Part shown: in pieces, positions 4,477 to 32,587 of the stretch
How positions within the stretch are numbered: the first letter of the stretch is position 1
Layout of the letters: every line of letters starts with the position of its first letter
IMG/VR virus record: IMGVR_UViG_3300025011_000129
Location: 1-33,203 of that record
DNA: 33,203 nucleotides
Source of the DNA: a virus
Direction: 5' to 3' (one strand)
Program-made: the position numbers and the translations under genes
Notes under the pieces: model-generated
The model's input: only the letters and a program-made list of their open reading frames with translations
Database searches by the model: none
Told to the model about the DNA's origin: nothing

Positions 4477-4505
4477 AATGATAATTCCCCCTTCAAAAAT
4501 AAAAA

Positions 4506-4573
4506 AAGAAGCTGCGGGTTCGAACCGCGATCTCCAATTATTCACTGGCGCTCTACCTTTGAGCTAGTTTCTT
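4506..4573 (-). tRNA. tRNA-like element, probably degenerate; anticodon not assignable
   Basis: On the minus strand the region folds as a tRNA. The acceptor AAGAAAC pairs with GCTTCTT in 6 of 7 positions. TA follows, then a D-arm GCTC-AAAGGTA-GAGC, and a T-arm GCGG-TTCGAAC-CCGC with a perfect canonical loop. The anticodon arm (CCAGTGAATAATTGG) is only 15 nt where 17 is normal. It either closes as 5 bp with a 5-base loop or as 3 bp with a 9-base loop. In the latter a U followed by GAA could be read as a Phe anticodon, but I would not assign it. No CCA is encoded; a T-run follows. The 5' end lies about 6 bases after the TATAAT of promoter 3, so transcription should begin at or within a few bases of the tRNA end. 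It may be a small functional tRNA, a mimic or a decayed copy. Confidence 0.6.
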
Positions 4574-4574
4574 C

Positions 4575-4779: not shown

Positions 4780-4889
4780 AAAGAGTGTAGGTTGATGACC
4801 CAACGAAAATCATCATTAAATACCCTTTAACGAGTATCACCCAGTAGAGTGGACTATTGCTCCACCACCTTCGTGTCTTACTGCTCTTT
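4780..4889 (-). ncRNA. structured leader RNA of unknown type
   Basis: The first transcribed bases after promoter 4 (AAAGAG, 4884-4889) can pair with CTCTTT at 4780-4785, followed by a U-run. Inside are a perfect 5-bp hairpin with 7-base loop at 4849-4865, a 6-bp hairpin at 4793-4815, and a weaker one near 4825. No open frame of useful size is seen. The size and closing helix recall a long-variable-arm tRNA, but the T-loop is not canonical (no TTCRA). I call it a structured leader or tRNA relic. It could also act as an attenuator for the GTG-started gene at 4608-4754. Confidence 0.45.
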
Positions 4890-4916
4890 CATTATAGCGT
4901 GTGTAAATCCTGCGAG
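4887..4916 (-). promoter_or_regulatory. cassette promoter copy 4
   Basis: CTCGCA, TTTACACA and TATAATGAAA. It begins one base after the U-run of the terminator at 4918-4939 and reads into the structured leader. Confidence 0.88.
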
Positions 4917-4917
4917 G

Positions 4918-4939
4918 TAAAAAGAAAGCCTAAGCTTCC
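4918..4939 (-). terminator. compact terminator, stop codon in the loop
   Basis: A GGAAGC/GCTTTC stem (one G-U pair) with a TTAG loop, followed by a run of T. The TAG in the loop is the stop codon of 4930-5058. Confidence 0.75.
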
Positions 4940-5058
4940 TTCAATTTATTTAACTGATATTCGAGTTCAATCTTACAACATTTTACCTTCGTCTTTGCAA
5001 TGATTAGCTCGTTTCTAACGAAGCGTTTCACTAACAATTTTAATGGCGTCTCATTCAT
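4930..5058 (-). CDS. small basic helical protein, 42 residues
   Basis: It starts at the ATG at 5058 (MNETPLKLLVKRFVRNE) behind GGAGGAGAGATTATT. The longer TTG-started frame to 5166 reads straight through promoter 5 and is rejected. The protein is almost entirely helix-forming and basic (KTKVKCCKIELEYQLNKLKEA) with a CC pair. It could form a short coiled coil. Its stop TAG is the loop of the terminator at 4918-4939, so the gene is one complete miniature cassette: promoter 5, a leader of about 20 bases, the gene and the terminator. The function is unknown. Confidence 0.78.
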   Translation of the reverse strand: MNETPLKLLVKRFVRNELIIAKTKVKCCKIELEYQLNKLKEA

Positions 5059-5079
5059 AATAATCTCTCCTCCAATTTC

Positions 5080-5109
5080 TTTCATTATAACCTGTGTAAA
5101 TCCTGCGAG
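5080..5109 (-). promoter_or_regulatory. cassette promoter copy 5
   Basis: CTCGCA, TTTACACA and TATAATGAAA. It drives 4930-5058. Confidence 0.88.
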
Positions 5110-5192
5110 GCTGTCTCCGAACCAAACATAAGCACAAATAACTGTAATAACAACTCCTTCTGCCAAGGTTCGAATTGGGTTACGGTAGACAT
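5085..5192 (-). CDS. doubtful 35-residue ORF overlapping promoter 5
   Basis: An ATG at 5192 has a good GGAGGG site 7 bases upstream. It opens a 35-codon frame (MSTVTQFEPWQKELLLQLF, then VLMFGSETASQDL) that ends inside the -10 box of promoter 5. It would be the second gene after 5229-5378. It is in favour that the ribosome site is strong. It is against that the last ten codons are the promoter itself and no terminator follows. It may be a truncated remnant left when the cassette to its left was inserted. The alternative frame (TTG at 5166) encodes a hydrophobic stretch and also ends in the next gene. Confidence 0.35.
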   Translation of the reverse strand: MSTVTQFEPWQKELLLQLFVLMFGSETASQDLHRL

Positions 5193-5228
5193 CAACAACC
5201 CTCCACTTCGGCGAAAAAGAAAAGAGGA

Positions 5229-5378
5229 TTAGCTATTAAATAGCCTTTCCAACTCCTCCATTTTTTCTTCAAATTGTTTTTTAAATTCTTCATATGTCAA
5301 TGTATCTGGTCCTTGGATAATAAAAGTTCTCAACTCCCCAATCGTTTTTATAATCCTTTCTGCATTTACTTTATCCAT
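5229..5378 (-). CDS. small acidic helical protein, 49 residues
   Basis: The ATG at 5378 (MDKVNAERIIKTIGELRTF) follows a weak AAAGGAATTTTATT site. The C-terminal half, TYEEFKKQFEEKMEELERLF, is a charged helix with heptad-like Leu/Phe spacing, so dimerisation by coiled coil is likely. There is no membrane segment and no Cys. It is driven by promoter 6 with a leader of about 25 bases. A short hairpin (GCTAT-TTA-ATAGC, with the stop beside it) and a T-rich stretch follow at about 5219-5240 and may terminate. The family is not recognised. Confidence 0.75.
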   Translation of the reverse strand: MDKVNAERIIKTIGELRTFIIQGPDTLTYEEFKKQFEEKMEELERLFNS

Positions 5379-5400
5379 AATAAAATTCCTTTCAATTTAT

Positions 5401-5430
5401 TTTCATTATAGCATATGTAATACGTACGAG
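5401..5430 (-). promoter_or_regulatory. cassette promoter copy 6
   Basis: CTCGTA in place of CTCGCR, then TTACATA and an extended TGC-TATAATGAAA. It drives 5229-5378. Confidence 0.85.
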
Positions 5431-5432
5431 GC

Positions 5433-5454
5433 AAAAAAGAAAGCCTAAGCTCTC
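5433..5454 (-). terminator. compact TTAG-loop terminator
   Basis: A GAGAGC/GCTTTC stem (one G-U pair) with a TTAG loop and T-run. It lies just after the stop of 5456-5650. The loop TAG is not the gene's stop here. Confidence 0.7.
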
Positions 5455-5455
5455 T

Positions 5456-5650
5456 TTACGCATTACTACTTTTTTCGATTCTAATCGTCATATTGTCCGC
5501 TTTAAATTGTATCTTAATTTCAGTTTCTACAGTCTTCCCCTCAGCATTTTCTTGTGTTGTTGGAATTTTAAATTCCATATCACAATTGTGTGCCTCGTAA
5601 AGAATCCCCTTCTTTAAAATTATTGATATAACCGCGTCAGTCAATTTCAT
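5456..5650 (-). CDS. hypothetical protein, 64 residues
   Basis: Start at the ATG at 5650 (MKLTDAVISIILKKGILYE) behind AGAGGAGAAATGGTT. An ATG two codons earlier is too close to the ribosome site. A short amphipathic helix is followed by alternating strands (DMEFKIPTT, VETEIKIQFKADNMTIRI), which suggests a small alpha-beta fold. It is soluble, with one Cys. Promoter 7 lies 30 bases upstream. It forms its own cassette, ended by the terminator at 5433-5454. No family is recognised. Confidence 0.77.
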   Translation of the reverse strand: MKLTDAVISIILKKGILYEAHNCDMEFKIPTTQENAEGKTVETEIKIQFKADNMTIRIEKSSNA

Positions 5651-8616: not shown

Positions 8617-8644
8617 CGTATTTCTCCTTTCAAATTAGATGGAC

Positions 8645-8665
8645 AAAAAGAAAGCCTAAGCTTCC
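8645..8665 (-). terminator. compact terminator, stop codon in the loop
   Basis: GGAAGC-TTAG-GCTTTC plus a T-run. The TAG is the stop of 8656-8841. Readthrough here would be needed to reach the nucleotide operon. Confidence 0.75.
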
Positions 8666-8841
8666 TCCTCTTCATCTCCGTAGAATAGATCGTTTAATTC
8701 GTTTTCTTTGATAATTCCGTTAAGTCGATTGATTCCATATAAAGCTGCTACCCCAACAACTGCCATTGGTATAGCTATTGTTAGAGCGATCGTTTTAATT
8801 TTCTCTTTCTTCTCACTTAAGTACTTTTCAATTCTAAACAT
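8656..8841 (-). CDS. single-pass membrane miniprotein with acidic tail, 61 residues
   Basis: The ATG at 8841 follows AGAGGATGATTAATT. It has a basic amphipathic start (MFRIEKYLSEKKEKIKTIAL), one membrane segment at residues 17-37 (IALTIAIPMAVVGVAALYG), and a very acidic end (NDLFYGDEEEEA). This is the same plan as 9134-9325, with related wording: TIAVTLPISII there and TIAIPMAVVG here, and LFxGDxEE at both ends. The two are probably paralogues. Promoter 12 lies 25 bases upstream. Confidence 0.82.
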   Translation of the reverse strand: MFRIEKYLSEKKEKIKTIALTIAIPMAVVGVAALYGINRLNGIIKENELNDLFYGDEEEEA

Positions 8842-8865
8842 AATTAATCATCCTCTCAAGATTAC

Positions 8866-8895
8866 TTTCATTATAGGGTATGTAATCTACGCGAG
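8866..8895 (-). promoter_or_regulatory. cassette promoter copy 12
   Basis: CTCGCG, ATTACATA and TATAATGAAA. It drives 8656-8841 and probably the 8616-7431 operon by readthrough. Confidence 0.9.
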
Positions 8896-8900
8896 AGTCT

Positions 8901-8926
8901 GTCGACAACCACCGTCGTAGACGGAT
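8901..8926 (-). repeat. 26-bp promoter-upstream element, copy B
   Basis: Matches 7364-7389 with one base change, except that the 3-base loop of its CCGTC/GACGG hairpin is in the opposite orientation. It sits in the same place, 5 bases upstream of promoter 12. Confidence 0.75.
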
Positions 8927-8928
8927 AG

Positions 8929-8951
8929 AAAAAAAGAAAGCCTAAGCTCCC
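8929..8951 (-). terminator. compact TTAG-loop terminator
   Basis: A GGGAGC/GCTTTC stem (two G-U pairs) with a TTAG loop and a T-run of seven. It comes after the 36-residue gene; the gene's own stop is just upstream. Confidence 0.7.
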
Positions 8952-8956
8952 TCATT

Positions 8957-9067
8957 TCAATGGGTTCTCATATATCGAATCGCTACCCATATAAGCCATG
9001 CTCCACCAGTAATAATTGTCATTATTAAATCTAATATTATACTAGTGCTTCTTTGCTGATATCTCAT
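8957..9067 (-). CDS. 36-residue hydrophobic miniprotein
   Basis: The ATG at 9067 follows AAAGGAGAATTAAT. The full frame starts MRYQQRSTSIILDLIMTIIT and continues GGAWLIWVAIRYMRTH. It has a basic start, a membrane segment with GGAWLIW at the turn, and a basic end. I recognise a similar pattern (RS...LIMT...TGG.WLIW...RY) in very short phage and bacterial proteins, so this is likely real despite its size. Promoter 13 sits directly upstream, and the gene is followed by a terminator, making one complete cassette of about 170 bases. The function is unknown. Confidence 0.78.
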   Translation of the reverse strand: MRYQQRSTSIILDLIMTIITGGAWLIWVAIRYMRTH

Positions 9068-9091
9068 ATTAATTCTCCTTTCAAGATTCTA

Positions 9092-9121
9092 TTTCATTAT
9101 AGGATATGTTATTGGCGCGAG
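9092..9121 (-). promoter_or_regulatory. cassette promoter copy 13
   Basis: CTCGCG, ATAACATA and TATAATGAAA. It drives the 36-residue gene at 8957-9067. Confidence 0.87.
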
Positions 9122-9122
9122 G

Positions 9123-9143
9123 AAAAAGAAAGCCTAAGCTTTC
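9123..9143 (-). terminator. compact terminator, perfect stem, stop codon in the loop
   Basis: GAAAGC-TTAG-GCTTTC, fully paired, then five T. The loop TAG is the stop of 9134-9325. One base separates the T-run from promoter 13. Confidence 0.82.
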
Positions 9144-9325
9144 TCCTCTTTAATTATTTCTTCATTATCCCCATCAAAGAGTCCATCAAAATCATCGCCG
9201 TCGATATCCGGCATACTAACTTTAATACCACTTAAAGCTATTATCGATATTGGTAATGTTACCGCTATCGTAATATTTTTAATAGTATTTTTATTTGTAT
9301 CCCAAAAATCTCTAAATCTACTCAT
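9134..9325 (-). CDS. single-pass membrane miniprotein with acidic tail, 63 residues
   Basis: The start is the ATG at 9325 (MSRFRDFWDTNKNTIKNI) behind AAAAGGAGTGAGTAAG. A GTG three codons earlier overlaps the ribosome site. It has a basic start, a membrane segment at about residues 18-34 (ITIAVTLPISIIALSG), then an acidic repeat-like tail (DIDGDDFDGLFDGDNEE). The DFDGLFDGD stretch is rich in Asp and Gly and could bind cations. It is probably a paralogue of 8656-8841. It is a single cassette under promoter 14. Confidence 0.82.
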   Translation of the reverse strand: MSRFRDFWDTNKNTIKNITIAVTLPISIIALSGIKVSMPDIDGDDFDGLFDGDNEEIIKEEKA

Positions 9326-9351
9326 CTTACTCACTCCTTTTCAAGATTATG

Positions 9352-9381
9352 TTTCATTATAGGCTATGTAATTTATGCGAG
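9352..9381 (-). promoter_or_regulatory. cassette promoter copy 14
   Basis: CTCGCA, ATTACATA and TATAATGAAA. It drives 9134-9325. Confidence 0.88.
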
Positions 9382-9392
9382 TGTATAAAGAT

Positions 9393-9413
9393 AAAAAGAA
9401 AGCCTAAGCTTCC
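9393..9413 (-). terminator. compact terminator, stop codon in the loop
   Basis: GGAAGC-TTAG-GCTTTC and a T-run. The TAG is the stop of 9404-9592. Confidence 0.77.
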
Positions 9414-9592
9414 CTTCTGACAATATCATGTATCATTGGTTGTTTTTTAAGTATATTCATTTTGTTTATTACGTTAAGTATCTCATTATTGGCATCTTTT
9501 CGTCCTTGATAATATTGTGCTTTAGCGACACATATACTAGCAATAACTAAACATCCAAACACAAGTGTTACAGTTTTACCTTCTATTAACAT
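9404..9592 (-). CDS. small membrane protein with YYQGR motif, 62 residues
   Basis: The ATG at 9592 follows TTTAAGGAGGAATATGT. A membrane segment covers residues 8-23 (VTLVFGCLVIASICVA). It is followed directly by KAQYYQGRKDANNEILNVIN, then a polar helix to a basic-acidic end. The block YYQGRxDAxNE is shared with the neighbouring 9665-9856 protein, so the pair are tandem paralogues. The motif sits just after the membrane and may define an interaction surface. It has its own promoter (15) and terminator. Confidence 0.82.
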   Translation of the reverse strand: MLIEGKTVTLVFGCLVIASICVAKAQYYQGRKDANNEILNVINKMNILKKQPMIHDIVRREA

Positions 9593-9621
9593 ACATATTC
9601 CTCCTTAAATTAACATGTTAT

Positions 9622-9651
9622 CGTCATTATAACGTATGTAATCCATGCGAG
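9622..9651 (-). promoter_or_regulatory. cassette promoter copy 15
   Basis: CTCGCA, ATTACATA and TATAATGACG. The GAAA end is not kept here. It drives 9404-9592. Confidence 0.87.
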
Positions 9652-9652
9652 G

Positions 9653-9674
9653 AAAAAAGAAAGCTTAGGCTTTC
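9653..9674 (-). terminator. compact terminator, CTAA loop with stop codon
   Basis: GAAAGC-CTAA-GCTTTC, fully paired, with a T-run of six. The loop is the complement of the TTAG loop seen in the other copies, yet it still supplies the stop (TAA) of 9665-9856. Confidence 0.82.
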
Positions 9675-9856
9675 TTCTCGAATTTAATCTTTTCGATATC
9701 ATCCAATATGGTTTTAAGTCCATCGGTCATTTCGTTTCTAGCGTCAATTCGTCCTTGGTAGTATTGTATGCGGCTAAAACACCGACTAACAATTATTAAA
9801 CCTCCAACAAATATTGCACCACAAATTCCTAATGCAATTTTATCACTCTTATCCAT
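9665..9856 (-). CDS. small membrane protein with YYQGR motif, 63 residues
   Basis: The ATG at 9856 (MDKSDKIALGICGAIFVGG) follows TTAAGGAGGATTTATT. A membrane segment covers residues 7-25 (IALGICGAIFVGGLIIVS). After it comes RIQYYQGRIDARNEMTDGLK and a charged C-terminal helix (ILDDIEKIKFEKKA). It shares YYQGRxDAxNE with 9404-9592 at the same distance from the membrane, which shows tandem duplication and divergence. Promoter 16 lies 22 bases upstream. The function is unknown. Confidence 0.82.
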   Translation of the reverse strand: MDKSDKIALGICGAIFVGGLIIVSRCFSRIQYYQGRIDARNEMTDGLKTILDDIEKIKFEKKA

Positions 9857-11811: not shown

Positions 11812-12057
11812 GTGTCTAAGAAGCTAATGGGGATACGATTAGATCAAGAAACCACTTTGAGACTGGATGCTTGGTCGGTAATGCTAAAACAGGAAAAGAC
11901 CAAAATAATTGAAGAATCATTTTTATTATGGGAAATTAATCACCACGCATCTGAGATAATCAGCGTTCATACCATCGTTGAGGAACTCAAAAAACACTCG
12001 TTAACATTCTATGGATTAGATAAGAGGAGTGAACTACCATGTCGACGAAAATATTAA
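11812..12057 (+). CDS. ribbon-helix-helix DNA-binding protein, 81 residues, GTG start
   Basis: The start is GTG at 11812, six bases after AGGAGG. The overlapping ATG two bases earlier is out of frame and short. MSKKLMGIRLDQETTLRLDA gives the antiparallel strand (IRLDQE) and first helix of a ribbon-helix-helix fold. SVMLKQEKTKIIEESFLLW completes the second helix. The last 35 residues may be an effector or oligomerisation part. Proteins of this type bind DNA as dimers at short palindromes and often repress their own promoter. The 16-bp palindrome just upstream is the obvious candidate. Its end overlaps the recombinase start by 19 bases, so the two are co-translated. It may control integration or direct recombination. 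Confidence 0.75.
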   Translation: MSKKLMGIRLDQETTLRLDAWSVMLKQEKTKIIEESFLLWEINHHASEIISVHTIVEELKKHSLTFYGLDKRSELPCRRKY

Positions 12058-13031
12058 GTTCGACCGCGGAGATTATGTTGGGTCAATTAACGACTGCTAT
12101 GACAATTACTTGCGATCTCAATAGACAACGAGTTGTCAGTATCCTATCACAATACGATATAAAGCCAGCTTTGGTAGCGATTGGTCATCCAGATCTAGCA
12201 CAAAAGATAAAGTTGTTTCTGTCTGGTAAGAAACTCGAAGGTCTAGCTGAGTCTACACTCAAAGGGTATACGCACGAACTTAGGATTTTTGCTAAACATG
12301 TATCAAAAGCAACGAGTGAGATTACTACTGCTGATCTAAGAATATACCTAAGCGAATGTGACCAACTTAAGACCGCGTCACTAGCAAAACGTCTGTCGGT
12401 ACTTAAGAGTATGTTTGGTTGGCTTTCTTCTGAGGAAATTATCGCCCATGACCCAACAAAGCGTATCCGACCTTTGAAGAAGGAACAGCGAGTCGCAAAG
12501 GCGTTGACTATTGAGGAGTTGGAAATGATTCGAGAGGCTTGTGTAAGTCCCAGAGAACGTGCGCTCGTAGAAGTCCTTTATGCAACGGGAGGAAGACTCT
12601 CTGAGATACAGAAAATGAGCCGTAATGATATAGATTATCAGGCGCTGTCGGTGTTGGTCATCGGCAAAGGAAACAAGGAACGACCCGTATATTTTTCGTT
12701 TAAAGCTATGTATCACCTTAAGAAATACCTTATGAAACGAACCGATAAAGACCCTGCTCTATTTGTTTCTGAACGAAGGCCTCATCAAAGATTATCCTGT
12801 AGGGGGATTGAGCGAGAGGTAAAAGTGATTGCTAAGAGATCAGAGGTCACTAAGAATGTATACCCACATATATTTCGTCACACTTTTGCTACATTAATGC
12901 TCGCGAATGGTGCCGAATTAGCTTCGGTACAAGCGTTATTAGGTCACTCTGATCCATCAACTACGATGATATATGTCGACGTTACCAATGAGAAACGTAA
13001 ACAATCACACCACCAATACTTGGTACAATAG
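12039..13031 (+). CDS. tyrosine recombinase / integrase (XerC/D-like)
   Basis: The 330-residue protein has an N-terminal core-binding (SAM-like) domain at about residues 50-135 (LFLSGKKLEGLAESTLKGYT). The catalytic domain has the expected active-site residues: Arg in ATGGRLSEI at about 185, Lys in GKGNKER at about 210, HxxR in PHIFRHTFA at about 276-279, His in LLGHSD at about 302, and Tyr in TTMIYVDVT at about 312. All five are present, so it should be active in cutting and rejoining DNA at specific sites. The absence of a long arm-binding domain makes it more Xer- than lambda-Int-like. The start is behind GAGGAG. It could integrate the phage, resolve dimers, or act on the repeats at 13061 and 14738. 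Confidence 0.92.
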   Translation: MSTKILSSTAEIMLGQLTTAMTITCDLNRQRVVSILSQYDIKPALVAIGHPDLAQKIKLFLSGKKLEGLAESTLKGYTHELRIFAKHVSKATSEITTADLRIYLSECDQLKTASLAKRLSVLKSMFGWLSSEEIIAHDPTKRIRPLKKEQRVAKALTIEELEMIREACVSPRERALVEVLYATGGRLSEIQKMSRNDIDYQALSVLVIGKGNKERPVYFSFKAMYHLKKYLMKRTDKDPALFVSERRPHQRLSCRGIEREVKVIAKRSEVTKNVYPHIFRHTFATLMLANGAELASVQALLGHSDPSTTMIYVDVTNEKRKQSHHQYLVQ

Positions 13032-13058
13032 CCTCCTTTTAGGGGGTTCTTTTTTGCC
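13032..13058 (+). terminator. terminator of the recombinase gene
   Basis: CCTCC-TTTTA-GGGGG forms a short G/C-rich stem directly after the stop, followed by TTCTTTTTT. It prevents plus-strand transcription from entering the tail-spike gene in antisense. Confidence 0.7.
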
Positions 13059-13060
13059 CT

Positions 13061-13093
13061 TTATTTCGTATAATGCGTCAACTGCGTATTAAT
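13061..13093. repeat. 33-bp direct repeat, left copy (flanking the tail spike)
   Basis: Matches 14738-14770 in the same orientation with 3 mismatches. It contains two TGCGT units 9 bases apart. This copy includes the stop codon of the tail-spike gene and begins 3 bases after the recombinase terminator. Confidence 0.85.
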
Positions 13094-14723
13094 CAAAGGC
13101 AACTCTCATTATAAATTCTGCATTTGTTGAATCTGTTGCATAACTTCCGTCCGTTGTCACAATAAGAGATAAGGCGTCTGTTGCTATAAAAGCTAATTCC
13201 GTTCCTGCTGACCAGTTTTTAACCAATGTGTAACCAGTTATGCCACTACCCATTACATAACTAAACCCTGTTGGAGTTCCATTCTTAGCTATTTCAATCG
13301 TCAAACTTCCGCCAATTTTTGGTGGATTTACATACATCCCTAACGCAGTAACAACCCCTGACTTACCAAACATTACTTGACTTCTTCCACTTCCGTTAAA
13401 AATAGGATTTGTATTCAAATTAACCGTTAAGTTTGCCAAAGTAAAATATATTGTTTGAGTGGATGGTCTGTAAATACTTGGCAAATTAGTTGCATCAATA
13501 AAATGGGTATTACCGTTATTTCTTACAGTAAATTTACCACCGTTATATTTTGATGGTGAATAAAATTGAGCGTACAGTATGGTGTTATTAGAAACAATTG
13601 ATTCAGCATAACCTGTTGCGATTTGATACAAATCTAATACAGGTGGGGGGCTTACTGTGCTTCTATCAGAAGCGACACCAGTTACTTTATTTGTTTGTTT
13701 ATGCCTCATATGGGTATTTTGTGAAAATATATTACCCCATGAAGATTGTGGAACATCTGATTTCATTTTTATATCTGAATAACCGTCACCCCAATTGTCA
13801 CATTCATCAAACACGTTATTTGTAACAATACACATTGTCATGCTATTAACAGAAATACCACCTGCTTTTTGCGTCCAAAAATTGTTGTTGGCAATGATAC
13901 ACTTATCGAGTGTTGTTGCGGAAATCCCCCATTTTGTATCAATCGTATAATAACTACCATCAAAAAAGTTATTTAAGATTTTCAAACCTCTAATGGAAGT
14001 TGTTGTTAAAATTGCACCATATGTTTTACCACCGACTATCTGATTATGGCTTATAACCGTATTACCTGTATATGAAACATCAACAGCACAATCCCTACCA
14101 TTACCCCACAATTCATTTTGCGTGATATACGAGTCTGTTGCTTCACATTTTAATACTGCAGATACAAACCTAGAATTAGTAATTTTTGCGACAAACAAAC
14201 TACCACCATACCCATTAGCCCTAACAATTGCAAGCCCATGTTTTGCACCTGCAGTAGAAGCTGTTCCCCCGTCATTGTCACCGATTACACAATTATCAAT
14301 AGTTAAATAATTGGTGTTTTGAAAACATACCGTCCATACTGTTCTCTCATTAATCGAAACAATAGCTATATTTCTAATCTCTATATTATTATTTGGAGTA
14401 GAAGTCCCGTAATTGGAATTAGCTAACAATGGTTTGTCAAGCATCAACCCGTTATCTTTTATGGCTGTGTATTCCTTCGTTGCACCCATAAGGACAACCG
14501 CTGTTGGGACTTTTATTGTGTCTGATATAATGTAAGTTCCAGAAGGGAAAAACAAAGTACCTTTCTTAACCGCTAGACTGTCAATAGCATTTTGGATTGA
14601 TATAGTATCGTCAGTTACCCCGTCCCCTTTAGCACCAAATGATTTTACTGTCGGATGATCAGCCAACTCCGACGTATGGATATCGACTAATTCCTGTAAG
14701 ATTTTAATTTTTGGTTTTCCCAT
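13089..14723 (-). CDS. tail spike with pectate-lyase-type beta-helix (Pectate_lyase_3)
   Basis: Near residue 26 the sequence VKSFGAKGDGVTDDTISIQN, then TLFFPSGTYIISDTIKVP, is the classic entry of the Pectate_lyase_3 right-handed beta-helix fold in phage tail spikes. Repeated short strands with Asn ladders follow (IANNNFW, IVTNNVFDECDN, VISHNQIVGGK) to about residue 340. The C-terminal 180 residues form a separate beta-rich domain (LGMYVNPPKIGGSLTIEI), probably for trimerisation or receptor binding. Such spikes bind and often cut surface polysaccharide; I cannot point to catalytic residues. The start is behind AAAAGGAGGTTAATCA. The gene is flanked on both sides by the 33-bp repeat, as if it were an exchangeable cassette. 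Confidence 0.88.
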   Translation of the reverse strand: MGKPKIKILQELVDIHTSELADHPTVKSFGAKGDGVTDDTISIQNAIDSLAVKKGTLFFPSGTYIISDTIKVPTAVVLMGATKEYTAIKDNGLMLDKPLLANSNYGTSTPNNNIEIRNIAIVSINERTVWTVCFQNTNYLTIDNCVIGDNDGGTASTAGAKHGLAIVRANGYGGSLFVAKITNSRFVSAVLKCEATDSYITQNELWGNGRDCAVDVSYTGNTVISHNQIVGGKTYGAILTTTSIRGLKILNNFFDGSYYTIDTKWGISATTLDKCIIANNNFWTQKAGGISVNSMTMCIVTNNVFDECDNWGDGYSDIKMKSDVPQSSWGNIFSQNTHMRHKQTNKVTGVASDRSTVSPPPVLDLYQIATGYAESIVSNNTILYAQFYSPSKYNGGKFTVRNNGNTHFIDATNLPSIYRPSTQTIYFTLANLTVNLNTNPIFNGSGRSQVMFGKSGVVTALGMYVNPPKIGGSLTIEIAKNGTPTGFSYVMGSGITGYTLVKNWSAGTELAFIATDALSLIVTTDGSYATDSTNAEFIMRVAFD

Positions 14724-14737
14724 TGATTAACCTCCTT

Positions 14738-14770
14738 TTATTTCGGATAATGCGTCTACTGCGTAATAAA
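14738..14770. repeat. 33-bp direct repeat, right copy (flanking the tail spike)
   Basis: Lies in the leader of the tail-spike gene, just before its ribosome site. It has the same TGCGT-CTAC-TGCGT centre as the left copy. It may be a promoter-operator or a recombination site. Confidence 0.85.
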
Positions 14771-14797
14771 GTTTCCCTTAATTGAGTAAGCTCCTAA

Positions 14798-17700
14798 TTA
14801 TAAATAAGATATATTATCTAACATTTTTATAAATTTAGCTGCAATTTCATTGTTTCCATAATTGTCTAAATAAGTAAACTTTCTGATATAAACATTACTT
14901 GGACCACCGGCATAAAAGGAAGTACCAGTAATATAATATTCGTTATTATACTTAACCACACTCGGATATACACATAGTATTGAACCTTGCATAATAATTT
15001 TACTTTGCGAAATATCGCCCGTATCTATTCTTGACACATTGGTTCTTTGCCGTGAATCCATAGTATTAAATAAATACAGTTTATCATTTTCAACCAACCA
15101 TGACGCTCTTGCCATTGCATCAGGAATGAAAATTTCTTGAGTTATAGATTTATTGATCATATTGATTTTAGCAATAAGTATTTTATATCCGCTTGATTGT
15201 CTTAATGCATAGTATAAATAATCGCCTAATACAGCACATGCACCCTCTAACATTGCATTCGATTCTGCAAATGACGGGTTTAACCATAGTTCATAATTTA
15301 CCATATCCGTTGATGAGAAAATAAGGCTGTTTGGTATATAATTTGATATACCTAGTCCAGAATAAAAAACATTATCCTTTTTTGCAATCTGTGCATTCAT
15401 AGAAATAAAATATGCAGTTGATTGTAATGATACTATATTGGAATTTATATAATCTGTTGTGAAATCATATAATGTACCACTGTTACTAATTTTACATATG
15501 CCAATACTACCTAATGATGCAGTAGAAATAGTAAAATCCCTATACAACATATACCATGTATTCCCCAACTTTGCTGAAAATAAAATACGCAAAGTATCAC
15601 TGTCTACAAATACAGAATTAGGAACTCCACATCCACTCGCTATTGGTGTCCCATCTACTGTATCTCCGTACTGCGCTGCGGTATGTGTTGTATAATTACT
15701 GCTTGTAATATCGCTTGTATCTATTATTGACAATTTAACATACGCATTTGTACTGAACGGATTATCACCATTACTGGTTGTATTCGCACAAGTAACAATA
15801 TATGCTACACCATTTGTATCAATATTTAATGAGGAATCATGTGAAAAATAATCTTGTGTTTTATCTCTATAATCCCATAAATCTTGGTCAAATTTAAGAC
15901 TATTTGCATACAATCTCATTATATCTAACACATTGAAATCATGAGTAAATGTTATGCCAGTTTTATAGGATGAGAAATATGAAGTATTGTCTGCTTTAGT
16001 TAAATTTAGTGTATAACTGAAATCCATATAGGAAATATCAGTCCCTAAAAGTAACGATTTTCTATTGGTTGAAATACCAACAATAATATACTCTGCGTTA
16101 TCTGGAATCGGTAAATTTCGATATGTGGTAACATTTACTGGCTCGTTATAGTTACTAGCATTATATCCATATATTCCACTTAAAAATGTTTTAGATTTAT
16201 CGTAGAAAAGAACACCTATATTTCCCGCAAGCCAACATTTTATATGCAAATAACTATTGCTTAAATGCCCTGATATAGAAATATATTGCGTTAAACTATA
16301 AGCTAGGTCTTCAGATACAATACCATTTGACGCATCAATGTATTTCCCATCCGTAAACATATCACTTGTAAATTTAATAGATTTCAGAACACATTTTTTC
16401 ACAGTATCATCATCAATAACTGTACCATATCCTTCTTGAACAATATTTACAGATGGTAATGAAGCAGTATCAGTACCACCCCTAAAATTATCAACATCAT
16501 CCGGAACATTTATTGCTAATCCGCCTGTCTCCATTTGGCTCCAATTCTCAATTACAGAAGAAACAGTATCCCCTTTACACCACATTGCTCTGTAGATACT
16601 ACTGGAGCCAATTTTAGTCCCTCTATCAAAAGATAAAATTCTTCCACTTTTTACTGGAAACTTAACAACGCTAATGCCATCTGCATCAATATATACCACA
16701 TTACCACTAACATCTGTGCCCAAGCGTTTATTGGATACTGTTTCATAGGATACAGTTGGATAATAATCCGGTAATGCATCATTGGTTTCGTTTATTTCTC
16801 CTTGTAATGTTCCAACCTGCCCTCTTATCGCCTCCCCTGCACTTGCATAAGTTACTCCATCAGCACCAACATGGGCGTCAATTAATTCGGCTGTTCCACT
16901 TGCAACGCCATAAACTAGCAATACATAATCTCCGGCTACGGGGATGTACCCTGTCGCTAATGGCGTAACGCTTGCTAAGTTTATTTGTCCCGCAGTTGCT
17001 CCGCTTGCCACTACTAATAATGCCCCAGTTATTCCAGCAGTAGATTTTTGATAAAAAGAAACATTAGGCGCGGCCACCAAAAGGTCAATTCTTGATTTCT
17101 GAGTATCTAGGTCTGTTTGCGGTGCTTTCGAAGCTAACTCTGACGCAGTTTCAGCCTGATACGACGAAAATCGTTCTTTAATGTTACCACTCACATTCGA
17201 TAATTCAATATCGCTAACTCCACCAGCTTGTATTTGTGAGCCAGCGATCGCTCCAGAGGTAGAGTCAACGATGGTTTTGTGTACCCTGAATACAACTATA
17301 TCATCAACATCGAGCGTCCAACCTATCAAATTAACACCTAAACCGTTTTCATTCTCGGTATACTCCATGTCCTTGGTTAAAAACTCACCATTATAAATAA
17401 CATCAAAATAGTCGGAATCAGGATTATATGATGGTAAATTTATGGGCACAAACGACTCATTTCCAACGCCAACGTATGTCGAGGGCATTATGGCATCCCG
17501 GCCAAGACTTAACGTACTAGCTACATTATCCACGGCGGTTTGTATTACCTCGAATCGTTCTTCGCGTAAGTCTTCGGACACATCCCTTATTTCTTCTGCC
17601 GCATTAAACACAGAGACTCTAGAAGCTTCACTAGCGTTAAAAGTTATAGTCCTATCGTTCTGACTTGTTAAGAAAGTGTTAGCTCTGACGGCTTCATTGA

Positions 17701-18274
17701 TGGTAAAAGTGCTTACCCGTCCGTCCTCAGCCGTTATTCTGGAAGCTTCGCCAGCTTCTCTCAATCCTTCTGCCGCATTAAACACAGAGACTCTAGAAGC
17801 TTCACTAGCGTTAAAAGTTATAGTCCTATCGTTCTGACTTGTTAAGAAAGTGTTTTGCCACCCCTCCAACGCACCAACAATACTGGATATATACTTAATG
17901 CTTAATAATCCAATGCTAGCATCCACGTAAAAGATAAATGTCGTAGACGATAAAACGTTAACTCCCTCGGTGAAGACTATCTCGGCTTCAACTTTACCGT
18001 CTACGGCTAGCGTAGCAGCTTTCAATACGCATTCAAACTTACCTGTTAGCGCATCCAAGATGGTTACGCCTGTTGTATTATCTTGGGATACAACCGCATT
18101 ATCCGAACGTAGAAAATTGAATTGTAGAGTTTGACCGGTTATGTTTACAGGTAATCCCTCGTCAACCAAAGTTATCTCCAAAACAGAAGTACCAGCATTG
18201 CCTTGTTTAAACAACGTGTTATTGGTAATCATTTTACTTTTTAAATCAATCGTAAGTTTGTATCGATTTTCCAA
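14798..18274 (-). CDS. receptor-binding / baseplate upper protein (BppU-type N-terminus), 1158 residues
   Basis: It starts with TTG behind GGGAGGTG. Residues 1-135 (LTIDLKSKMITNNTLFKQGN, then VLEITLVDEG) resemble the BppU N-terminal domain that docks onto the Gram-positive phage baseplate. Residues 140-230 are a coiled-coil neck with SEASR/NEAVR-type repeats, including an 88-bp exact DNA duplication (residues about 140-169 and 198-227). A middle stretch to about 480 is Ala/Gly-rich (GADGVTYASAGEAIRGQVG). The C-terminal 400 residues look like a beta-propeller or sialidase-type fold (SSTDMVNYELWLNP, ASWLVENDKLYLFN), suggesting glycan binding or hydrolysis at the host surface. Catalytic residues are not assigned. 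It sits between the hairpin at 18299-18340 and the tail spike. Confidence 0.83.
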   Translation of the reverse strand: MENRYKLTIDLKSKMITNNTLFKQGNAGTSVLEITLVDEGLPVNITGQTLQFNFLRSDNAVVSQDNTTGVTILDALTGKFECVLKAATLAVDGKVEAEIVFTEGVNVLSSTTFIFYVDASIGLLSIKYISSIVGALEGWQNTFLTSQNDRTITFNASEASRVSVFNAAEGLREAGEASRITAEDGRVSTFTINEAVRANTFLTSQNDRTITFNASEASRVSVFNAAEEIRDVSEDLREERFEVIQTAVDNVASTLSLGRDAIMPSTYVGVGNESFVPINLPSYNPDSDYFDVIYNGEFLTKDMEYTENENGLGVNLIGWTLDVDDIVVFRVHKTIVDSTSGAIAGSQIQAGGVSDIELSNVSGNIKERFSSYQAETASELASKAPQTDLDTQKSRIDLLVAAPNVSFYQKSTAGITGALLVVASGATAGQINLASVTPLATGYIPVAGDYVLLVYGVASGTAELIDAHVGADGVTYASAGEAIRGQVGTLQGEINETNDALPDYYPTVSYETVSNKRLGTDVSGNVVYIDADGISVVKFPVKSGRILSFDRGTKIGSSSIYRAMWCKGDTVSSVIENWSQMETGGLAINVPDDVDNFRGGTDTASLPSVNIVQEGYGTVIDDDTVKKCVLKSIKFTSDMFTDGKYIDASNGIVSEDLAYSLTQYISISGHLSNSYLHIKCWLAGNIGVLFYDKSKTFLSGIYGYNASNYNEPVNVTTYRNLPIPDNAEYIIVGISTNRKSLLLGTDISYMDFSYTLNLTKADNTSYFSSYKTGITFTHDFNVLDIMRLYANSLKFDQDLWDYRDKTQDYFSHDSSLNIDTNGVAYIVTCANTTSNGDNPFSTNAYVKLSIIDTSDITSSNYTTHTAAQYGDTVDGTPIASGCGVPNSVFVDSDTLRILFSAKLGNTWYMLYRDFTISTASLGSIGICKISNSGTLYDFTTDYINSNIVSLQSTAYFISMNAQIAKKDNVFYSGLGISNYIPNSLIFSSTDMVNYELWLNPSFAESNAMLEGACAVLGDYLYYALRQSSGYKILIAKINMINKSITQEIFIPDAMARASWLVENDKLYLFNTMDSRQRTNVSRIDTGDISQSKIIMQGSILCVYPSVVKYNNEYYITGTSFYAGGPSNVYIRKFTYLDNYGNNEIAAKFIKMLDNISYL
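17593..17680. repeat. 88-bp perfect direct repeat, copy 1
   Basis: Identical to 17767-17854 over all 88 bases, with 86 bases between them (offset 174 = 58 codons, so the frame is kept). It lies inside the neck of the 1158-residue protein. Confidence 0.93.
17767..17854. repeat. 88-bp perfect direct repeat, copy 2
   Basis: Second copy of the repeat at 17593-17680. Perfect identity over 88 bases, including silent positions, indicates a recent duplication or ongoing homogenisation. Confidence 0.93.
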
Positions 18275-31754: not shown

Positions 31755-32060
31755 TTAATAATAAAGATTGTATACGTCATGATTAAGATTATCAGACGTA
31801 TAATGCCTATCAAATACACACATAGGCAAAGACTTGATTTTGTCTGGAAGTAAACTATCAGGATTTTTGTCAACCACCGTTACGGTATACCCGACTTGAT
31901 GGTTATACGGTTTGTCGTTTGCGAATTTTGTTTTGTTAAGACTGCGCGAATAAATGACACAAGGATAACTCAACTTGACGGTTTCAGGAGGTTGAAAATA
32001 GACGTTAGACGAGCCGATTAGAGTCTCAAGGAGTGTTTGAAGTTGGACCCTGCTCGCCAT
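31755..32060 (-). CDS. tail completion / tail terminator-type protein, 101 residues
   Basis: LQTLLETLIGSSNVYFQPPE, YPCVIYSRSLNKTKFANDK, YTVTVVDKNPDSLLPDKI and the closing MCVFDRHYTSDNLNHDVYN form a small alpha-beta protein. I recognise this pattern (FDRHYTxDNLNHDVYNLYY) from tail completion proteins of Bacillota phages related to SPP1 gp17 or lambda U. It caps the tail tube for joining to the head. Its start shares a base with the stop of the HNH gene (TAATG), a junction presumably created when the endonuclease gene was inserted. Confidence 0.8.
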   Translation of the reverse strand: MASRVQLQTLLETLIGSSNVYFQPPETVKLSYPCVIYSRSLNKTKFANDKPYNHQVGYTVTVVDKNPDSLLPDKIKSLPMCVFDRHYTSDNLNHDVYNLYY

Positions 32061-32587
32061 TATATAACCACCTCCTCATCATAACAAACGGTATAGCCAC
32101 GAGTATGGCTTTGTCTCCCGTTTAAACACGCAGATATATTCACAGGATTAAGCGAAAGGATAATTGCCGCCTCATTAATACTTTCAAAACACTCTTCGTT
32201 ATGCTCGTAATCATAGACTTTTATTGGGCGCCTTCTCGCCTTAGCTAACTTTTCTGGTCTAGATCCATATAACGAATTGTATTTTGCGGTGCACCATTCC
32301 AAATTGTCCGATACGTTGTCTAACTTTTTTTCATTTTTATGATTTACTTGTGGTAGATCATTAGGGTTTGGAATATTCTGTTCGGCCACAAGACGACCAA
32401 CCGTTGTGTATAGACAATTACCATTAAATCTCAAAGTTACTTTTTCATACCCATATCGATCCTCGCTCGTTTTTAAAACCCTTCCAATTACTTTTCGTCG
32501 ATGACCTCTAGAATCTACGTATTCTCTATCGAGAGATCTAATCTTACCATCTGGGGAAGCATCATAATACCTCATCCAATTATTCAT
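32060..32587 (-). CDS. HNH homing endonuclease with NUMOD domains
   Basis: The 175 residues contain a NUMOD4-like start (YYDASPDGKIRSLDREYVD), then an HNH_3 core: PQVNHKNEKKLDNVSDNLEW, where VNHKN gives His/Asn and NVSDNLEWC the second half. A C-terminal NUMOD1-like helix-turn-helix follows (SINEAAIILSLNPVNISACL, RGYTVCYDE). Such genes cut DNA at an uninserted allele and spread by repair. Here it is a free-standing gene that sits between head connector and tail completion genes, with 4-base and 1-base overlaps. The insertion therefore preserved translation of the late operon. It is not part of the virion. Confidence 0.88.
   Translation of the reverse strand: MNNWMRYYDASPDGKIRSLDREYVDSRGHRRKVIGRVLKTSEDRYGYEKVTLRFNGNCLYTTVGRLVAEQNIPNPNDLPQVNHKNEKKLDNVSDNLEWCTAKYNSLYGSRPEKLAKARRRPIKVYDYEHNEECFESINEAAIILSLNPVNISACLNGRQSHTRGYTVCYDEEVVI

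Follow-up and report, generated by a model that had tools for sequence, protein, structure and literature searches.

The locus considered here lies in a virus sequence of 33,203 nucleotides (the window; IMG/VR virus record IMGVR_UViG_3300025011_000129, matching part of the 48.5-kb contig L003) and shows two copies of a 33-bp direct repeat, one at each end of a tail spike gene, the left one just behind the gene of a tyrosine recombinase. This arrangement raises the question of what the repeats are for, in particular whether they bracket a spike cassette exchanged by the recombinase or by homologous recombination, as the original prediction had proposed, or are copies of a regulatory site. Based on comparison with related sequences, we think it likely that they are core sites of the adjacent Xer-like recombinase, which would use them in a system for the exchange of tail-fibre modules.

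Genes and repeats of the locus

The tail genes follow each other on the minus strand in the order tape measure, Dit, tail-associated protein, DUF4376 protein, BppU-like fibre, and spike, and a small protein and the recombinase are encoded on the plus strand, with the spike on one side and the lysis genes on the other. The following features were annotated:

11812..12057, plus strand: small protein of 81 aa overlapping the recombinase start (open reading frame; sub-threshold Pfam match, E 0.086)
12039..13031, plus strand: Xer-like tyrosine recombinase of 330 aa (Phage_integrase PF00589, 5.9e-36)
13030..13048, plus strand: intrinsic-terminator-like hairpin 3' of the recombinase (from sequence)
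13089..14723, minus strand: tail spike gene, 544 aa (PF12708, 5.6e-19)
14798..18274, minus strand: BppU-like fibre gene, 1158 aa (BppU_N, 2.7e-20)

The recombinase carries the full catalytic R-K-H-R-H-Y set (R186, K210, H277, R280, H303, and Y312), which is invariant in 18 relatives. Its best matches are Xer proteins, with XerA, XerC, and XerD models and structures ranking first (XerD in the PDB with 4.8e-34), though its scores lie under the curated cut-offs (XerA 219.8 bits, cut-off 220; XerC 202.5, cut-off 335; XerD 198.2, cut-off 329.6); its predicted structure is of middling quality (pLDDT 77). The 81-aa protein, retained at 91% in the related phage L004, looks ribbon-helix-helix-like by eye and is possibly a DNA-binding partner or regulator. 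In many relatives, too, the recombinase gene is followed at this spot by a hairpin-like stretch with T behind it. In one relative (L021:7001-11486), an insert with further tyrosine recombinase genes splits the recombinase gene after residue 281, and in another (L036:1-7296) the recombinase end is 94% identical to the window at the DNA level and lies beside Baseplate_J and Mu Gp48 genes, i.e., in a different tail type.

The direct repeats at 13061-13093 and 14738-14770 are real and correctly placed, but they match at 29 of 33 positions (mismatches at 13069, 13080, 13089, and 13093) rather than at the 30 first counted. The chance expectation for repeat pairs this good is 1.3e-4 in the window, and a scan of the window with TAATGCGTCNACTGCGTA, allowing up to three mismatches, found the two copies only (0.04 expected) and no third close copy. 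As had been noted, the left copy covers the spike stop codon (13089-13091) and begins 30 bp past the recombinase stop (13031), and the right copy sits in the spike leader, just upstream of a Shine-Dalgarno-like sequence and the start (14723). The right copy also lies about 27 bp past the stop of the BppU-like fibre gene (14798). The only exact repeat matches in viral contigs besides the window's phage (L038-L041) were taken as chance, being one common sequence with no recombinase relative among the tested proteins.

Two classes of sites in the fibre genes

Among relatives of the recombinase, two classes of 35-bp sites with similar arms were found, for which a dif-like layout of a 14-bp arm, a 6-bp centre, and a 14-bp arm is possible. 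The usual dif layout is a 6-bp centre flanked by two arms. Sites of the first class (T1) are mostly non-coding and overlap or follow the last stop codon of a fibre module, and those of the second (T2) lie in frame within the fibre gene and antisense to it. In the window, each repeat is the T1 of a different fibre gene, and both genes also hold a T2:

13060..13094, plus strand: site L (T1), centre TGCGTC at 13074-13079, right arm over the spike stop (T1 matrix 39.9 bits)
14645..14679, plus strand (antisense to the spike): T2 in the spike gene, centre TCAGCC at 14659-14664, encoding SELAD (1.9 bits)
14737..14771, plus strand: site R (T1), closing the BppU-like fibre gene, centre TGCGTC at 14751-14756 (T1 matrix 41.9 bits)
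17137..17171, plus strand (antisense to the gene): T2 in the BppU-like gene, centre TCAGCC at 17151-17156, encoding YQAE (11.3 bits)
13080..14658, minus strand: variable C-terminal module of the spike, pectate-lyase-like fold family (without DNA homology to L004 between 13079 and 14659)
14764..17143, minus strand: BppU-like fibre, variable C-terminal module (window, L004, and L197 each with a version unrelated to the other two)

The matrix scores of both T2 sites in the window are low, yet these sites have the correct centre and lie at junctions.

The centre reads TCNGCC in 38 of 40 sites deep in reading frames, and in the others mostly TNNGTC, or TNNTCC in Bacilli-type phages, so that coding and non-coding centres differ in every locus, by two to four of six bases. 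Partners may differ in the third base of the T2 centre, so that the overlap is not identical in every case. Arm symmetry of the sites amounts to 52-55%, and covariation between the arms was not significant.

T2 always occurs in one reading phase and encodes LxxHxAD-like peptides. Hence, motifs were picked by their peptide instead of their DNA and codons were counted against expectations from the same genes. In recombinase loci, the first codon was NTT in 43 of 45 motifs (12.8 expected) and the next codon ended in T in 26 of 31 (10.2 expected), compared to 1 of 16 (2.4 expected) in control loci, these counts including related sequences and thus not being independent trials. T2 is therefore under constraint at the DNA level, and the codon test rules out a mere protein motif.

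Four loci (L033:8041-10505, L013:3285-4364, L134:7214-7991, and L158:736-1714) displayed an extended T1 consisting of the T1 left half, about 80 conserved bp, and an inverted half. The same loci have extra small genes between the recombinase and the fibre module, and a conserved small gene (KSLNITIEPGIYEEFCDYAGKKGIRVSPWV), ribbon-helix-helix-like in appearance, adjoins T1 in them.

Comparison with the closest relatives

Searches with the fibre N-terminus and the DUF4376 protein returned, apart from the phage's own 48.5-kb contig, only L004 (IMGVR_UViG_3300025010_000080) and L197 (3300025030_000374), the latter a contig ending in the spike. L004 shares the backbone of the window at about 87-90% DNA identity, including a 96% identical recombinase, but has a different spike and a different BppU C-terminus. 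Its DNA homology stops at 13079, the final base of TGCGTC in the left repeat, reappears over 14659-14763, a stretch that begins with the first base of TCAGCC within the spike gene and ends inside the right repeat, in its right arm, and is found once more from 17144, a position in the left arm of the T2 of the BppU-like gene. L197 shows the same break at 17144, a third BppU C-terminus, and a right repeat that is kept; at the spike T2, its homology resumes at 14649. Homology thus breaks within sites, and at the spike sites exactly on the edge of the central hexamer. In both relatives, the fibre N-termini and the outer halves of the sites are kept and the C-terminal modules are unrelated to those of the window. 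At the protein level, similarity is confined to the first 47 residues of the spikes and to the first 380-400 of the BppU-like fibres. Presumably, the conserved N-terminus is the tail-docking part and the variable C-terminus the receptor-binding part. Within the N-terminal part of the BppU-like gene, a 109-bp near-tandem duplication (17572-17680 and 17746-17854, 92%) was noticed.

The original prediction had named the comparison of spikes in related phages as a check, and in L004 the spike indeed differs from the repeat sites onward; the repeats thus behave like recombination sites linked to the recombinase, as had been proposed. The idea of an exchangeable spike cassette holds in that the spike varies between relatives, but the unit is the C-terminal module: the first 22 codons or so are kept, and homology returns at the T2 inside the gene. 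Moreover, a single spike cassette is not what the two repeats enclose, since each of them closes the C-terminal module of its own fibre gene, and a second fibre, the BppU-like one, shows the same kind of variation starting at 17137-17171. With identical centres in direct orientation, the left and right repeats could also recombine with each other and excise the entire spike, but no product of such an event was seen.

Proposed exchange of fibre modules

Each fibre gene is organized as a conserved N-terminus, an in-frame T2, a variable C-terminus, a stop codon, and an intergenic T1, the two sites having the same orientation. The recombinase would catalyse strand exchange at the site centre, and, because the centres of the two classes differ by two to four of six bases within a locus, T1 would pair with T1 and T2 with T2. 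A C-terminal module would then give way to one supplied by a second phage or prophage present in the cell, and would not be deleted by recombination between T1 and T2; the outcome may be a change of receptor with an effect on host range. From the sequences, we infer that the exchange takes place between genomes. Taken further, this would be a natural cassette exchange, in which phages of Firmicutes share receptor-binding tips between genomes with the help of an Xer-like recombinase acting on two sites that are incompatible with each other, one of them embedded in the reading frame of the fibre gene, with tips being replaced and not lost; to this wider proposal we give about even chances.

Distribution of sites and breakpoints

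The arrangement is found repeatedly in phages of Firmicutes: among 83 recombinase loci, T1 was recognised in 59, T2 in 59, and both in 46 (11, 2, and 0 in the reversed-sequence control), a count favoured by the fact that some of these sites went into building the matrices; the other 37 loci lack one or both recognisable sites. The orientation of T1 and T2 agrees in 43 of 44 loci. Prophage-like regions of Paenibacillus, Metabacillus, Sporosarcina, and a Syntrophomonadaceae bacterium are among the loci, and host-type Xer loci revealed no T1 or T2 above 16 bits.

In comparisons of pairs of loci, 26 of 281 homology ends were no more than 30 bp away from a site in each of the two partners. When one partner alone was considered, 29 homology ends were near sites, with a null mean of 3.2 and a maximum of 9 in 500. 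In six pairs, the T2 break lay on the left edge of the centre (site position 15), and in four pairs the T1 break lay on its right edge (position 20), examples being L131/L132, L136/L138, L143/L148, and L144/L149; several of these pairs have loci in common, so the independent events are fewer.

Contigs found by the T2 sequence alone mostly lacked this recombinase (10 of 13, some being fragments), and there it would act in trans or have been lost. In L206 and L207, otherwise different phages without the recombinase, a module 25-27% identical to that of the window spike directly follows their own T2, as expected if modules travel.

Alternative explanations

T2 in contigs without the recombinase would also suit a reading in which the sites are linkers of shared DNA for RecA- or Rad52-like joining of unrelated tips and the recombinase is a bystander. 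Selection for recombination could likewise preserve the DNA identity of such linkers, and relaxed homologous recombination, documented for temperate phages (PMC3945230), fits this reading. We nevertheless regard it as improbable, since the arms are shared by the in-gene T2 and the intergenic T1, the latter adjoining the recombinase gene, both classes are dif-like, and they keep different centres. Unaided homologous recombination, which had been offered as one route of spike exchange, also does not readily account for breaks on the edges of the central hexamer.

A further possibility is that the recombinase is the lysogeny integrase of the phage, the left repeat serving as attP and its right counterpart being a duplicate that arose by chance or persists as a relic. 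An attP typically sits just after the integrase gene, and the 48.5-kb contig of the window phage revealed no second match to PF00589 or PF07508. Many relatives, however, possess another integrase, either of the tyrosine type (G003, G012, G017, G023, and G024) or a large serine integrase (G008, G013, G015, G016, and G019), commonly near the contig end. As T1 furthermore lies inside the phage sequence between recombinase and fibre genes, second-class sites lie inside fibre genes, and the fibres vary between the sites, we consider this very improbable.

That the repeats are a duplicated promoter or regulatory element of the fibre genes, the simpler reading first put forward, is hardly credible: site R does lie just upstream of the spike start and T1 contains a TATAAT-like string, but the fibre genes are encoded on the other strand from this string, promoter-like matches are about as frequent in the region as after shuffling (10 found, 9.2 expected), only two copies exist in the window, the T1 sites of relatives follow stop codons and their other sites lie in genes, and the early promoter-like family of the window, present in many copies, is a different one.

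Relationship to known systems

Compared with described systems, the proposed module exchange comes closest to the Rin shufflon, known from prophages of Bifidobacterium (PMC6109161) and clade 1 prophages of Eggerthella lenta (PMC8778435). Both have an XerD-like or Xer-like tyrosine recombinase beside a receptor-binding or fibre gene (PMC6109161, PMC8778435), one site in the gene and one just past its 3' end in direct orientation, and a constant N-terminus with a variable C-terminus. In Rin, the recombinase is also distinct from the lysogeny integrase, which here is true of many relatives, no second integrase having been found in the window phage. In contrast, Rin has extra inverted sites, an array of silent C-termini, inversion, and rix repeats of 8-11 bp (PMC6109161, PMC8778435), whereas the sites described here are 35 bp long, dif-like, all direct, and of two classes with different centres, and the variation is found between genomes. 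Inverted sites were sought in the 27 loci with at least two sites, with no true case, the one apparent case being a T2 read on the other strand; on this ground, an inversion switch was rejected. No silent C-terminal array was recognised in the locus maps read, some of which hold small genes of unassigned role. Since no inverted sites were found, we do not assign the system to Rin and regard it as a further variant of fibre diversification driven by a recombinase, which would work like a direct-site counterpart of Rin. In the openly accessible journal literature, Rin was found and no direct-site system in Firmicutes phages.

The systems Gin of Mu, Cin of P1, and Min of p15B likewise have a recombinase adjoining tail-fibre genes, a crossover site in the fibre gene, and a switched C-terminus (PMC6109161), but use serine recombinases and inverted sites instead of a tyrosine recombinase and direct ones. 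XerCD/dif and XerA are the closest relatives of the recombinase by sequence and fold; XerCD acts on chromosome dimers, whereas the recombinase here would act on fibre modules. Integrons (IntI, attI/attC) resemble the system in an Xer-related recombinase beside a site of gene variation, and some relatives carry extra small genes at T1. The exchanged unit here, however, is a gene end fused in frame, and the recombinase reached 105.8 bits with the IntI-type integrase model TIGR02249 (cut-off 265). The extended T1 of some relatives gave weak folds, which hint only faintly at an attC-like hairpin, and the window has simple sites only. In engineered recombinase-mediated cassette exchange, heterospecific lox or FRT sites with different centres flank the exchanged piece. 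The present system shares the two site types with different centres, but is natural, and its centres are presumably incompatible.

Phage receptor-binding proteins have long been noted to have a constant and a variable part, and a concrete enzyme and concrete DNA sites are thereby offered for the boundary between the two; fibre tips differing from these sites onward suggest how such viruses could change hosts. If the proposal is right, exchangeable tips could be read from the sequence in many Firmicutes phages and prophages, host-range switching would be directly testable in laboratory phages, and the list of known recombinases would grow by an Xer-like enzyme whose two classes of sites may not react with each other.

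Further features of the window

At least 12 copies of TCATTATA..CGTATGTAAT....GCGAG occur between 885 and 10304 (e.g., 4889-4917 and 9624-9652) before small early genes, ending in TATAATGA on the gene strand; the TCATTATA..CGTATGTAAT repeat looks like a phage-specific promoter family. Repeated AAAAAGAAAGCCTAAGCTTTCT blocks, partly inverted and possibly terminators, were detected between small early genes at 8638-9676 and 4912-5456. Finally, the window encodes a tRNA-Ile (4504-4574, anticodon AAT as reported by ARAGORN) and an HNH/NUMOD homing endonuclease-like gene amid the head-tail genes (32060-32587).
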